This document shows, piece after piece, positions 1 through 8,199 of a stretch of 64,000 nucleotides of DNA; position 1 is the stretch's first letter; every line of letters starts with the position of its first letter. The DNA lies in the NCBI RefSeq assembly GCF_002002705.1, contig NZ_MUNS01000041.1:310001-374000 (forward strand), written 5' to 3'. Under the pieces are notes generated by a model that worked only from the letters and a program-made list of their open reading frames with translations, searched no databases and had not been told where the DNA came from. This DNA comes from Polaromonas sp. C04. GTDB lineage: Bacteria > Pseudomonadota > Gammaproteobacteria > Burkholderiales > Burkholderiaceae_C. The position numbers and the translations under genes were made by a program.

Positions 1-1473
1 GCCGACGAGGTCTACGCCCGCATGCTCAAGAAACCCGCGGGCGCGCGACTGAAGCTGCTGCGGGACAGCGAGGGCGCACAAGGGCGCTTTCTGTGGGCGA
101 TCCTGCGCAACAGTTTTCACTATGCGGCCGTGCATCTGGCCACCATCGCCGAGACGGCGCGCGATGTAGATCAGGCCATGCGCTGGGGCTTCGGTATGAA
201 TCAAGGCCCGTTCGAGCTCTGGCAGGAAGCGGGCTGGCTCGAGGTGGCGAAGATGGTGCAGGAGGACATCGATGCCGGCAAGGCGCTCTCCAGGGCGCCG
301 CTGCCCGATTGGGTGTTCAACGGTCCCGTGCCAGAGGCCGGTGGCGTGCACACGGCGGCCGGTTCGTGGAGTGCCTCTGCTCAGAAATTCATAGCGCGAC
401 GTGCGCTTCCTGTTTACGCCAGGCAGCATTTTCCTGAAAAATTGCGGGGTGAATCGCTGCCCGATTTCAGGACCGCCGGAACGACGCTGCATGAGGGCGC
501 CGCGATCCGCCTGTGGACGCTGGATGAGGACCAGGATGGGCCCTCCGGTGGCCAGGTGCTGATTGCCAGCATCAAGACCAAGATGCACGCCATCAGCCCC
601 GACGTGGCCGAAGGCCTGGCGCTGGCGGTGGACCTGGCCGAGAAGGACTATCAGGGCGTGGTGATCTGGTCGGGCGACGAGCCCTTCAGCGCGGGCGCCG
701 ACCTGCAGGCCATGCTGCCGGGCTTCATGGTCGGCGGCGTCGCGGCCATCGACGAGACCGAGCATGAACTGCAGCGCATCATGCTCAAGCTGCGCTACGC
801 CAGCGTGCCGGTGGTGTCCGCCGTGCGTGGTCTGGCGCTGGGCGGCGGCTGCGAGATGGCCGTGTACTCGGCGCGCCGCGTGGTCCACATGGAAAGCTAC
901 ATCGGCCTGGTCGAAGTGGGCGTGGGCCTGGTGCCCGGCGCCGGCGGCCTGACCTATATCGCCCGCCGCGCCGCCGAGAACGCTGCCACCAGCACGGGCA
1001 AGGATCTGTTGCCGTTTTTGACTGAAGGCTTCACCGCGGCCGCCATGGCCAAGGTCGGCACCAGCGCGCTCGAATCGCGCAAGCTCGGCTATCTGCTGGA
1101 CAGCGACCTGATCGTGCCGAACAAGGACGAGCTGCTGTTCGTGGCGCTCAACGAAGCGAAGGCGATGGCGCTGGGCGGCTACCGCGCGCCGCACAAACGC
1201 CTGTTCCCGGTGGCCGGCCGCAGCGGCAAGGCCACGATCCAGGGGCAGCTCGTGAACATGCGCGACGGCGGCTTCATCAGCCAGCACGACTTTCACATCG
1301 CCAGCCTGATCGCCGGCGTGGTCACCGGCGGCGACGTGGATGCCGGCACGCTGGTGACGGAAGAGTATCTGATGACGCTGGAGCGCCGCGCCTTCGGCGC
1401 GCTGCTGGCGCACCCCAAGACCCAGGAACGCATCATGGGCATGCTCAGCACAGGAAAGCCCATACGCAACTGA
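1..1473 (+). CDS. 3-hydroxyacyl-CoA dehydrogenase / enoyl-CoA hydratase, 3' part (5' end outside window)
   Basis: The reading frame is open from the first base, and 490 residues are visible before the TGA. The first half resembles the C-terminal helical domain of 3-hydroxyacyl-CoA dehydrogenases. The second half is a crotonase domain with the oxyanion-hole elements FSAGADL and GLALGGGCEMA and a catalytic-type glutamate region (EVGVGLVPGAGG). A dehydrogenase followed by a C-terminal hydratase is the order of the roughly 800-residue FadN/FadB-like enzymes, which carry out hydration and oxidation in beta-oxidation. About 300 N-terminal residues, including the NAD-binding fold, should lie upstream of the window. 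The thiolase that completes the cycle follows at 1945, separated only by the DUF559 insertion. The family assignment is secure; the substrate range cannot be read. Confidence 0.9.
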   Translation, partial: ADEVYARMLKKPAGARLKLLRDSEGAQGRFLWAILRNSFHYAAVHLATIAETARDVDQAMRWGFGMNQGPFELWQEAGWLEVAKMVQEDIDAGKALSRAPLPDWVFNGPVPEAGGVHTAAGSWSASAQKFIARRALPVYARQHFPEKLRGESLPDFRTAGTTLHEGAAIRLWTLDEDQDGPSGGQVLIASIKTKMHAISPDVAEGLALAVDLAEKDYQGVVIWSGDEPFSAGADLQAMLPGFMVGGVAAIDETEHELQRIMLKLRYASVPVVSAVRGLALGGGCEMAVYSARRVVHMESYIGLVEVGVGLVPGAGGLTYIARRAAENAATSTGKDLLPFLTEGFTAAAMAKVGTSALESRKLGYLLDSDLIVPNKDELLFVALNEAKAMALGGYRAPHKRLFPVAGRSGKATIQGQLVNMRDGGFISQHDFHIASLIAGVVTGGDVDAGTLVTEEYLMTLERRAFGALLAHPKTQERIMGMLSTGKPIRN

Positions 1474-1484
1474 CCCTTTGCCTT

Positions 1485-1520
1485 CCTCCTTCCCCCTCTG
1501 GGGGAAGGCAGGATGGGGGC
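1485..1520 (+). repeat. Hairpin repeat (family R2), left copy flanking DUF559 gene
   Basis: The core is CTTCCCCC-TCT-GGGGGAAG, an 8-bp perfect palindrome around a 3-nt loop, followed by GGCAGGATGGGGGC. The same element occurs inverted at 1886-1922 and direct at 7021-7054. The form is REP-like: a short, intergenic, imperfectly palindromic unit with a G-rich tail. Confidence 0.85.
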
Positions 1521-1528
1521 GATACCCA

Positions 1529-1948
1529 ATGCAAAACCAGTCCACTTCAACCGCACGGACCAATGCCCGCACCTTGCGTCGCGAGATGACCGATTCCGAG
1601 CGCAAACTTTGGATCGCTTTGCGCAGCGAGCAGCTCGGCGTCAAGTTTCGGCGACAGCATCCCTTGGGGAATTACATCGCAGACTTTGCCTGCCTCGGTC
1701 CGAAGCTCATCGTTGAGCTCGACGGATCGCAGCATCAGGATCAACAAGCCTACGACGCGATGCGCGATGCGTTTTTTCGCGCACAAGGGTTCGAAGTGCT
1801 GCGCTTTCCGACGAATACACCGTTTCTCAATCTCGATGGGGTGCTTCAGGTGATTGCTGATCGCCTGGCTGCGCTGGCGGTGCCGGCCCCCATCCCAGCC
1901 TTCCCCCAGAGGGGGAAGGAGCAAAACTACCCAGGAGCTTCATCATGA
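1529..1948 (+). CDS. DUF559 domain protein (Vsr/restriction-endonuclease-like fold)
   Basis: This is a protein of about 139 residues starting at the internal ATG. The longer reading from 1478 would translate the flanking repeat (PLWGKAGWGR), so it is not preferred. The sequence fits DUF559: an N-terminal RREMTDSERKLW helix, then KFRRQHPLGNYIADF, the conserved IVELDGSQH segment and a terminal FEVLRFP strand. The family belongs to the PD-(D/E)xK nuclease-like proteins related to very-short-patch repair enzymes. The Asp in YIADF and the Glu in VELDG are the expected catalytic acids, but activity is not demonstrated. The gene splits an acyl-CoA degradation operon and is bracketed by inverted hairpin repeats. 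Its last codons come from the right repeat and its stop overlaps the thiolase start (ATGA). It looks like a small inserted unit. Confidence 0.8.
   Translation: MQNQSTSTARTNARTLRREMTDSERKLWIALRSEQLGVKFRRQHPLGNYIADFACLGPKLIVELDGSQHQDQQAYDAMRDAFFRAQGFEVLRFPTNTPFLNLDGVLQVIADRLAALAVPAPIPAFPQRGKEQNYPGASS
1886..1922 (-). repeat. Hairpin repeat (family R2), right copy, inverted
   Basis: The reverse complement matches the left copy at 1485-1520 over about 35 bases with one indel and one mismatch (GGCTGGGATGGGGGC against GGCAGGATGGGGGC). It lies inside the 3' end of the DUF559 frame, where it is translated as PIPAFPQRGKE. With the left copy it forms terminal inverted repeats around a roughly 365-bp interior. 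Confidence 0.85.
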
Positions 1949-3153
1949 GCAAACAAATTCAAGACGCCTACATCGTTGCCGCTACGCGCACCCCGATCGG
2001 CCGATCGCACCGCGGGTTCTTTCGCAACACCCGCCCGGACGACCTGCTGGCGACGGCGCTGCGTGCGGCGCTGGCGCAGGTGCCGGGGCTGGACCCGAAG
2101 GCCATTGAAGACGTGATCTGCGGCTGTGCGATCCCCGAGGCCCAGCAGGGCCTGAACGTGGCGCGCATCGGCGCCATCCTCGCGGGCCTGCCCAAGAGCG
2201 TGGGTGGCATCACCGTGAACCGCTTTTGCGCGTCGGGCCTGTCGGCCGTGCAGATGGCGGCCGACCGCATCTGCGTGGGCGAGGCCGACGTGATGATCGC
2301 CGCCGGCACCGAGAGCATGAGCATGGTGCCGATGATGGGCAACTCGCCTTCGCTCTCGCCCACGATCTTCAGCAACACCGACGATGTCGAGAGCTATGGC
2401 ATCGCCTACGGCATGGGCCTGACGGCCGAGAAGGTCGCGCAGCAGTGGAAGGTGAGTCGTAAGGCGCAGGACGAGTTCGCGTATCGGTCGCACATGAAGG
2501 CCGTCGCTGCGATGAAGGCGGGCGAGTTTACCGACGAGATCACGCCGGTGGACGTGGCCGAGCGCTCGGTGGACCTGGATTCGGCCGAAGTCAGCGTCAT
2601 CAAGCGCACCGTTAGCCTCGACGAAGGCGCGCGCCCCGACACCACCTTGGAGGACCTGGCCAGACTCAAAACCGTGTTTGCCGCGCGCGGCTCGGTCACG
2701 GCCGGCAACAGTTCGCAAACCTCGGACGGTGCGGGCGCGCTGATCCTGGCCAGCGACGCCGCCGTCAAGCGTTTCGGCCTCACGCCGCTGGCGCGCTTTG
2801 TCAGTTACGCCAGCCGCGGCGTGCCGCCGCACCTCATGGGCATCGGCCCGATCGAGGCGATTCCGGCGGCGCTGCGCTACGCCGGCCTCAAGCTCGATGA
2901 CCTGGACTGGATCGAGCTCAACGAAGCCTTTGCCGCGCAGTCGCTGGCCGTCATCAACACGCTGGGCCTCGACCCGGCCCGGGTCAATCCCATGGGCGGC
3001 GCCATCGCGCTCGGCCATCCCCTGGGGGCCACCGGGGCTATCCGTTCCGCGACAGTGGTGCATGCGCTCAAACGGCACAATAAGAAATACGGGATGGTCA
3101 CCATGTGCGTGGGTATGGGGCAGGGCGCGGCCGGCATTTTCGAGCGCGTCTGA
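1945..3153 (+). CDS. Acetyl-CoA acyltransferase (thiolase, beta-oxidation type)
   Basis: The 402-residue protein has the full set of thiolase landmarks. The nucleophile is Cys95 in NRFCASGLSA, the catalytic His is at about 358 in GHPLGATGA, and the second Cys is at about 388 in MCVGMGQGAAG. It cleaves 3-ketoacyl-CoA with CoA to release acetyl-CoA, the last step after the bifunctional enzyme encoded just upstream. The start follows GGAGC at a normal distance and overlaps the DUF559 stop. Length and motifs are normal. It could equally be called FadA/FadI type; chain-length specificity is not visible. Confidence 0.95.
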   Translation: MSKQIQDAYIVAATRTPIGRSHRGFFRNTRPDDLLATALRAALAQVPGLDPKAIEDVICGCAIPEAQQGLNVARIGAILAGLPKSVGGITVNRFCASGLSAVQMAADRICVGEADVMIAAGTESMSMVPMMGNSPSLSPTIFSNTDDVESYGIAYGMGLTAEKVAQQWKVSRKAQDEFAYRSHMKAVAAMKAGEFTDEITPVDVAERSVDLDSAEVSVIKRTVSLDEGARPDTTLEDLARLKTVFAARGSVTAGNSSQTSDGAGALILASDAAVKRFGLTPLARFVSYASRGVPPHLMGIGPIEAIPAALRYAGLKLDDLDWIELNEAFAAQSLAVINTLGLDPARVNPMGGAIALGHPLGATGAIRSATVVHALKRHNKKYGMVTMCVGMGQGAAGIFERV

Positions 3154-7014: not shown

Positions 7015-7020
7015 TTTGCA

Positions 7021-7054
7021 CCTTCCCCCTCTGGGGGAAGGCGGGGATGGGGGC
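7021..7054 (+). repeat. Hairpin repeat (family R2), solo copy
   Basis: The sequence starts CCTTCCCCCTCTGGGGGAAG and continues GCGGGGATGGGGGC. It is the same element as the two copies flanking the DUF559 gene, here alone and immediately after a stop codon. The hairpin could end transcription or stabilise the 3' end of the acyl-CoA operon message. Confidence 0.85.
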
Positions 7055-7101: not shown

Positions 7102-8199
7102 ATGAGCGAAACCCTGGAGCAGGCGCGGCAATTCTTTCAGGACGGCCTCGCGCATTCCGAGGCGGGCCGGCTGGAGCAGGCCGAACGCTGTTTTGCGGCG
7201 GCGCTGTCGCTGGCGCCCGGGCGGCCTTCGGTGCTGACGAACCTGGGCGCCACACGTGTGCGGCGCGGCCATTGGGCCGACGCGCTGCCGCTGCTGGAGG
7301 AAGCATTGGTGGCCGAGCCCGACAACCTGGAGGCCTGGTCTCATCTGGGCATGGCGCACGCCGAGTTGGGCCAGATGACACCGGCCCTGCAGGCGTTCGA
7401 GCGTGCGCTGGCCATCGACCCCCGGCAGACCGGCCTGTGGAGCCGGCGTGGCAGCCTGCTGCGCGAACTGGGGCGCCTGAGCGAGGCGGCCGAATGTTTT
7501 GAGCAGGCGCTGGCGCTGGGCGCCGACCCGCAGTTGCACGGCTACTACCTGGCATCGGTGCGCGACGGGGCCGCTCCCGGCGTTGCGCCGCGCGCCTATG
7601 TGGAGTCGCTGTTCGACCGCTACGCGGATGAATTCCAGACCCATCTGGTGGGGGCGCTGCGCTATCGGGCGCACGAGGTGCTGGTGCGTGGGCTGGCGCC
7701 GCTGGGGCCGCAGCGATTTCGCTCCGTGCTCGATCTGGGTTGCGGCACGGGCCTGATCGGGCCGCTGATCAAGCCCATGGCGGACCGCGTGGACGGCGTC
7801 GACCTGTCGTCGGGCATGCTGGAACAAGCGCGTGCGTGCGGCAGCTACACCGGGCTGGTCCATGCCGATGCGGTGGATTACCTGCAGTCTGCCGGCCGCC
7901 AATACGACCTGGTGCTGGCGGCCGACGTCTTCATCTACGTGGGCGCGCTGGACGCCGTGTTTGCCGGCGCGGCGCGTGTGCTGGCGCCCGGCGGGCTGTT
8001 CGGCTTCAGCGTCGAGCTGACGGCCGACGCGCACGACCTGCGGCTGCTGCCCAGCCTGCGCTATGCGCACTCGCAGGCCTATGTGCGCCGTCTCGCGCAA
8101 GAGCATGGCTTCGAGGTGCGCGCGGCGTTCCGCGCGCCGTTGCGCGAGGAGCAGCAGCGGCCCGTCGAGGGCCTTTACGTTTACTTGCAAGGTCGTTGA
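7102..8199 (+). CDS. TPR-repeat protein with C-terminal class I methyltransferase domain
   Basis: A 365-residue protein. Residues ~1-150 are tetratricopeptide-like helical pairs (NLGATRVRRGHWADALPLLEEAL, then WSHLGMAHAELGQMTPALQAFERAL and a third unit). Residues ~205-365 form an S-adenosylmethionine-dependent methyltransferase fold with motif I VLDLGCGTG at about 209-217 and the acidic end of strand 2 in VDGVDLSSGML. The substrate is not identifiable; the TPR part probably binds a protein partner. It has its own promoter space and is not translationally coupled to its neighbours. Confidence 0.85.
   Translation: MSETLEQARQFFQDGLAHSEAGRLEQAERCFAAALSLAPGRPSVLTNLGATRVRRGHWADALPLLEEALVAEPDNLEAWSHLGMAHAELGQMTPALQAFERALAIDPRQTGLWSRRGSLLRELGRLSEAAECFEQALALGADPQLHGYYLASVRDGAAPGVAPRAYVESLFDRYADEFQTHLVGALRYRAHEVLVRGLAPLGPQRFRSVLDLGCGTGLIGPLIKPMADRVDGVDLSSGMLEQARACGSYTGLVHADAVDYLQSAGRQYDLVLAADVFIYVGALDAVFAGAARVLAPGGLFGFSVELTADAHDLRLLPSLRYAHSQAYVRRLAQEHGFEVRAAFRAPLREEQQRPVEGLYVYLQGR

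Follow-up and report, generated by a model that had tools for sequence, protein, structure and literature searches.

DUF559 genes are usually bracketed by two inverted copies of a short hairpin repeat, the intrastrand triplex motif (TM; in older usage PIT). TMs and DUF559 genes are each known separately, and the connection between them is apparently new: searches of open-licence PMC papers turned up none that ties DUF559, COG2852 or ycjD to these repeats (a subscription paper could exist). The unit considered here lies in a 64,000-nucleotide stretch of the Polaromonas sp. C04 genome (the window; contig NZ_MUNS01000041.1, positions 310,001 to 374,000). The interpretation that is favored, with moderate confidence, is that this unit exemplifies a widespread repeat-nuclease module resembling RAYT/REP, in which a DUF559 nuclease of the Vsr/homing type would be the cognate enzyme of the TM.

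The Polaromonas unit

Table 1. The DUF559 unit, its repeats and its neighbors (coordinates of the window)
Feature	Coordinates	Strand	Remarks
Left TM repeat, type A	1487..1519	+	CCTTCCCCC-TCT-GGGGGAAGG-C-AGGATGGGGG; tail directed to gene
DUF559 (PF04480) gene, predicted PD-(D/E)XK / Vsr-like nuclease, 139 aa	1529..1948	+
Right TM repeat, inverted copy	1887..1920	-	Tail directed to gene
Solo TM repeat, window type	7020..7053	+	Between SDR-like and TPR-methyltransferase-like genes (by eye)
Upstream neighbor, hydroxyacyl-CoA dehydrogenase / enoyl-CoA hydratase-like (by eye)	22..1473	+	Truncated by window start
Downstream neighbor, thiolase-like gene (by eye)	1945..3153	+

A preliminary description of the window took the left and right elements to be inverted copies of each other, as indeed they are (the arms at 1483-1519 and 1888-1924 are 37 nt long and 86% complementary), and correctly placed a solo copy near 7021. 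Perfect copies of the core CTTCCCCC-NNN-GGGGGAAG stand at 1489, 1900 and 7022. If as many as 3 mismatches are tolerated, the window contains 6 matches, where 100 shuffles give 0.47 on average and never more than 3. A finder for a hairpin with a mirror tail returns exactly three matches in the 64 kb, which are the three repeats of Table 1. Each repeat is 33-34 bp long, and is more than the palindrome around TCT that was originally described: a G/C-rich hairpin, CCTTCCCCC-loop-GGGGGAAGG, is followed by a tail, GGGATGGGGG, that mirrors the purine arm and belongs to the repeat. Reversed, the tail reads GGGGGTAGGG, which mirrors the purine arm, T standing opposite A; the spacing between arm and tail is one base shorter in the left copy than in the right. 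By sequence, the arrangement is that of an intrastrand triplex.

The interior had been described as almost exactly one DUF559 gene. The gene is full-length (DUF559 profile positions 3-108 of 109, E 2.4e-37, 127.6 bits against a cut-off of 20.6), but it is not confined to the interior: the ORF that starts at the ATG at 1529 runs through the right repeat, which encodes its final codons, and ends at 1948, its stop overlapping the thiolase ATG at 1945. Among 154 loci with a downstream repeat, the stop codon precedes that repeat at 44, falls within it at 19 and lies past it at 91.

The repeat as an intrastrand triplex motif

The TM is found in more than 260 genomes and in 23 copies in E. coli K-12 (Holder et al. 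2015, PMC4666352). In the proposed fold, a pyrimidine arm, a loop and a purine arm would form a hairpin, against which a second purine run would be laid back as the third strand, with G contacting G:C and T or A contacting A:T. The window repeats have both the purine-arm hairpin and the third-strand purine run. Their type, A, follows the same third-strand rule as the published TM, and the sequence of a second type, B (CCCTCTCCC..GGGAGAGGG..GGGTGAGGG), matches E. coli copies listed in PMC4666352. Inverted doublets, known for the published TM, also occur here, and gene-free doublets are present in several genomes.

Covariation between arm and tail was scored in 186 perfect 9-bp purine hairpins near 111 DUF559 loci (24 different arms, 81 loci), with pairs such as GGGGGAAGG + GGGGGTAGG, AAGGAGGGG + TTGGTGGGG and AGGAGGGGG + TGGTGGGGG. 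Scored as third strands, tails agree with their own arms at 8.05 of 9 positions; tails swapped between different arms do so at 6.88 (200 swaps, sd 0.09, maximum 7.08). TM variants thus obey the third-strand rule, since tails fit their own arms better than swapped tails do. An A in the arm stands opposite A 198 times, T 142 times, C 40 times and G 23 times (with the spacer picked on G alone), so that T does not invariably face an A. The type B purine arm and tail are also compatible with four G3 runs, that is, with a G-quadruplex; the tail, however, mirrors the arm at 8.05 of 9 positions and copies it at 6.95 of 9, which favors a predicted triplex over a quadruplex. The E. coli motif is reported to form a triplex in vitro, and the text of PMC4666352 gives a stable triplex in vivo no support. 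At some loci (L059, L072, L097, L123, L128, L137) a second small hairpin or a longer spacer separates purine arm and tail.

The DUF559 protein

The DUF559 protein is, on its modeled structure, a small nuclease with the fold shared by Vsr, the EDxHD homing enzymes and the PD-(D/E)XK family. The AlphaFold model of the window protein (pLDDT 90.4, pTM 0.82) superimposes on 3hrl (NGO0050, a putative endonuclease) with Z 15.3, on the homing endonuclease I-Bth0305I (3r3p_A) with Z 11.5 and an rmsd of 2.4 over 89 residues, on Vsr (1cw0_A) with Z 9.9 and an rmsd of 2.1 over 94 and, less surely, on TnsA with Z 7.0. Fold alone does not give function, since some mitoribosomal chains of other function score Z 9.4-10.0. 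The residues that are invariant in 27 diverse domains include E16, D44, E55, D57, H61 and D68 (numbered from window position 1553), presumably those of a PD-(D/E)XK / EDxHD-type active site. Pfam places no family except DUF559 above its cut-off in the window protein, and a PADLOC search for defence systems returns no match for it. Comparison of the genes of G000 (the window's own genome) and G006, a second genome of the genus, gives dN 0.091 and dS 0.53 over 110 codons, which indicates purifying selection. A DUF559 protein of Caulobacter, VsrA, is needed by a methylase mutant to mount its SOS response and has been given a putative Vsr-type role (PMC12907096).

Flanking repeats at other DUF559 loci

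Among 191 full-length DUF559 loci (80 of which are the best 80 of at least 581 confirmed relatives), a TM lies on both sides of the gene in 141, on one side in 39 and on neither in 11; 180 have a TM no more than 250 bp from the gene, and in 117 the tails face it. The possibility that DUF559 genes elsewhere would be free of flanking repeats, and the association at the window locus coincidental, is answered by these counts. At the 111 loci from the genus, family and class (both sides 88, one 19, none 4), TM density is 5.00 per kb within 250 bp of the gene and falls to 0.195 per kb at distances above 400 bp; in Markov-shuffled sequence it is 0.003 per kb. The named set (the best 80 of at least 581, which lean to the window's subfamily and may have species in common with the unnamed sets) divides into 53, 20 and 7, with 4.38 against 0.093 per kb. 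The density beside the gene is therefore about 26 times (111 loci) and about 47 times (best 80 of at least 581) that farther out. The outer length between the nearest TMs has a median of 443 (IQR 420-472, n=138).

An inverted-repeat score reaches 30 or more at 21/21 genus and family loci (best other window of the locus, 3/21) and at 65/90 class loci (16/90). The class set covers 369 genomes; from it, 90 further matches of at least 107 bits were used, after removal of two rows that duplicated the family set. Direct-repeat scores did not serve as a control, since a hairpin is self-matching in either orientation. Of 11 loci with a weak or partial DUF559 match, none has inverted hairpin repeats and one gives a TM-finder match, an atypical one. 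DUF559 matches are present in 4 of the 7 genus genomes and, counting any match, in 50 of the 150 family genomes.

The named set draws on Alpha-, Beta-, Gamma- and Deltaproteobacteria, Chloroflexi, Spirochaetes, Nitrospirales, Omnitrophota, Gastranaerophilales, Dadabacteria and others; its 7 loci at which the finder sees no TM are 4 of the 6 from Chloroflexi, both of those from Legionella/Fluoribacter and one from a MAG filed under Rickettsia. Plasmid loci of Synechocystis and Deinococcus have the motif on both sides with tails outward, and that of Azospirillum has it on one side only. The pairs at L101, L214, L266 and L267 face outward.

This crowding bears on the most serious alternative, which dispenses with any enzymatic link: DUF559 would be a Vsr-like repair or restriction nuclease, and the TMs insulators, terminators or landing spots that protect neighboring operons. 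The Caulobacter protein does seem to act like a Vsr-type nuclease (PMC12907096), insulation could help the window unit, which sits within a gene cluster, and in the Enterobacter 638 genome paper 100 such hairpins are presumed to terminate transcription (PMC2869309). According to Holder et al., however, an earlier study had seen neither promoter nor terminator activity from the E. coli motif (PMC4666352), and an unlinked nuclease would not readily account for a TM within 250 bp at nearly all of the loci (with the selection of the named set as stated) and 26-47 times fewer a few hundred bases off. Together with the tracking of the protein tree by TM class and of gene presence by TMs elsewhere in the genome, this makes the absence of a link improbable, at perhaps the level of a serious minority opinion.

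Repeat class, protein tree and repeats elsewhere in the genome

Mapped onto a tree of 185 DUF559 domains (6 of the 191 loci were excluded by a motif check), TM class changes 39 times, against a mean of 75 and a minimum of 67 in 200 shuffles, as counted over the 163 rows with a TM label (22 of the 185, lacking a clear class, were excluded). Of these 163 rows, 118 share their class with their nearest relative (mean 52, maximum 76 in 1000 shuffles), as do 63 of the 105 cases in which that relative is more than 0.6 away on the tree. The agreement points to a stable pairing of TM class and protein; it is not proof of recognition, and could arise from the shared ancestry of gene and flanks alone.

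Repeats that do not flank the gene also go with its presence. Type B hairpins occur in 54 of the 73 class genomes with a full-length gene and in 57 of the 296 without, a difference that is partly built in because the flanking copies are counted. When two copies are subtracted for each DUF559 match, the counts become 35/73 and 57/296 (odds ratio 3.9, p 2e-6); for at least 3 further copies they are 33/73 and 35/296 (odds ratio 6.2, p 1e-9), and for the family, with flanks discounted and counts tallied by hand, 14/19 and 20/131 (odds ratio 15.5, p 4e-7), all of these Fisher p values being too small because the genomes are related. Type B copies total 1117 in the 73 genomes with the gene and 601 in the 296 without it. 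After the discount, 38 of the 73 have no further copy, and several TM-rich genomes lack a full-length gene (at least two of these, G263 and G463, have partial matches).

At the level of the genus, the gene-bearing genomes differ in their number of A/C-type hairpins: G000 (with a single DUF559 match) has 15, G006 has 10, G005 has 6 and G004 has 4. Two of these flank the gene in each genome except G005, where none does. Where the gene was not found, the numbers are 0 (G001), 1 (G003) and 9 (G002, a genome that is 90% complete).

The same distribution weighs on a second and rather more doubtful alternative, namely that the nuclease polices TMs by removing or resolving folded ones, or that TMs are tethers that make loss of the gene costly. 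A policing nuclease would sit well with the need for the Caulobacter DUF559 protein in the DNA-damage response in the absence of the methylase (PMC12907096), and with the instability of E. coli TM loci, at which TMs have been deleted or mutated (PMC4666352). It should not, however, leave more TMs in gene-bearing genomes, as is seen even with the flanks discounted, nor zero A/C-type hairpins in the gene-less G001.

Residence, turnover and movement

In the genus and family, the unit is mostly resident at one place: the same dehydrogenase-thiolase junction harbors 16 of the 21 DUF559 loci. The flanks at this shared junction vary, being of type A in some genomes and of type B or C in others, and both flanks are of one class in nearly all junction loci (L025 mixes A and C). 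Either old units change both ends together, or units are replaced at one site. The protein of the type B unit of G005 is 49% identical to the window protein.

Single TMs turn over within the genus. The solo repeat of the window is absent from the same site in G006. Another TM site is occupied in G000, G006 and G002 and empty in G001, G003 and G004; a TM doublet is common to G000, G005 and, in part, G002 (at a contig end), and is missing in G001, G006 and G003. An 80-kb stretch of G001, of which about 65 kb align at 88-98% identity, contains no TM match with a score of at least 16. Two further observations concern these sites: the TM at the second of them (L009 1499-1532, G000 C22) may sit within a coding sequence, and the TPR-methyltransferase-like gene beside the solo repeat (7102-8199) is missing from the aligned G001 region.

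The proposal that the window unit is small and mobile fares unevenly. On the one side, single repeats come and go and two relatives that have the junction, G001 and G003, lack the gene there. On the other, the junction is the same in most loci, target duplication is not general, and no base-precise empty site was found at the compared loci: the intergenic flanks have diverged in G001, and G003 has other sequence. (The latter, at L044, is about 150 bp long and is possibly another short element.) The best sign of whole-unit movement comes from the genome G186, in which two units at different places are 98% identical over 534 bp, with sharp ends.

A transposon with general target duplication was considered and rejected. 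In the 120 of the 191 units that have an inverted-repeat score of at least 40 and enough flank, direct repeats of 5 bp or more are found at 7, with 10.2 expected; one of 8 bp or more is found at 1 (0.15 expected). In three similar G186 units (L061, L081, L084) the inverted sequence continues outside the TM; L081, alone among the units, is bordered by a direct repeat of 10 bp. Long inverted repeats reaching tens of bases beyond the TM are also seen at L059, L066, L085, L150 and L156, and those of L150 come with no TM match at all.

That a separate transposase moves the TM doublets as MITE-like elements, with DUF559 as trapped cargo, is the least probable of the alternatives, and quite unlikely: it gains from the long inverted repeats outside some TMs and from the direct repeat of L081, and is opposed by the lack of a duplication signal across the 120 units, by the flanking of the same gene family in many phyla (best 80 of at least 581) and by an outer length that varies little.

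The ycjD locus of E. coli

E. coli has a DUF559 family member of its own, YcjD, a predicted PD-(D/E)XK nuclease (PMC1189080), and the ycjD region is matched in 3365 of 5426 complete E. coli genomes. In MG1655, ycjD occupies 1351407-1351760, and published TM no. 9, found letter for letter at 1351204-1351239, sits 167 bp downstream of it, with decayed TM-like stretches between the two (by eye). The finder sees no TM upstream; unlike the window unit, that of E. coli has one intact TM, the downstream one. Upstream of ycjD (in the ycjD-sapF intergenic region, L218 and L265), at the place expected for a TM, is an A/T-rich palindrome, CTCATTCTGACAA..TTGTCAGAATGAG. In two E. coli strains that lack ycjD, RND efflux genes stand beside sapF instead (see also PMC12817139). 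E. coli K-12 probably holds both parts of the module, ycjD and 23 TMs, in a decaying state.

A proposed mechanism

The favored reading, a repeat-nuclease module with a cognate DUF559 enzyme, can be put in molecular terms. The TM would be extruded as a hairpin or triplex in single-stranded or supercoiled DNA, and the cognate DUF559 nuclease may recognize the extruded form and nick or cut there. Host repair could then copy from another TM, TM pair or TM-gene-TM unit; such copying would spread single TMs and inverted doublets, would occasionally move the gene, and would keep the two flanking TMs alike. PD-(D/E)XK nucleases hydrolyze DNA and do not join it, which makes repair-driven spread, as in homing, likelier than a RAYT-like strand transfer. 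Two published observations on E. coli count against the reading: the want of support for a stable triplex in vivo, and the finding that from strain to strain most TMs stay at one locus (PMC4666352). A more far-reaching version, according to which DUF559 proteins recognize intramolecular triplexes and propagate the TMs as selfish elements, in a repeat-homing system that extends from Proteobacteria to Chloroflexi and Deinococcus and survives as a remnant in E. coli K-12, is offered tentatively, and would sooner be expected to fail than to hold.

Relation to known systems

The suggestion that the arrangement is REP/RAYT-like, with a Vsr-like endonuclease in the place of the Y1 transposase, is well supported by the flanked DUF559 loci elsewhere and by the modeled fold. 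Four features are held in common with RAYT/REP as described in PMC2817692: a small gene lies between two inverted short palindromic repeats, the repeat also occurs elsewhere in the genome on its own and in inverted doublets, its type tracks the protein tree, and there is no larger target duplication. The differences are of enzyme and of repeat. RAYT is a Y1 (HUH) transposase related to IS200/IS605, whereas DUF559 has a modeled PD-(D/E)XK / Vsr-like fold; and the GT(A/G)G head beside the REP palindrome (PMC2817692) has no counterpart directly beside the window repeats (by eye).

I-Bth0305I and Vsr have the same fold as that predicted for the window protein, and one paper files a DUF559 gene under EDxHD (PMC9403480). 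The EDxHD homing enzymes, however, carry a long DNA-binding region (PMC3943268), in contrast to the window protein, a nuclease domain with short ends; and DUF559 differs from EDxHD enzymes and Vsr alike in being bracketed by repeats. Classical DDE insertion sequences duplicate their target site, which is not general here (L081, with its 10 bp, is an outlier). As to the TM itself, the 2015 study reports no mobility activity near TMs, and the words 'endonuclease', 'DUF' and 'Vsr' are absent from its main text (PMC4666352); here, TM variants are linked to DUF559 genes.

What the link would mean

The TM, present in E. coli and hundreds of other genomes, has previously been without a partner gene or a function. 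DUF559 is a natural candidate for that partner, by its adjacency to TMs, by the agreement of TM class with the protein tree and by the larger number of repeats elsewhere in the genomes that carry it. If this is true, REP/RAYT-like repeat-nuclease modules arose at least twice, with enzymes that are not related to each other, and a role would be found for a large, uncharacterized protein family. The link also makes the question of what TMs are approachable by simple experiments in E. coli.
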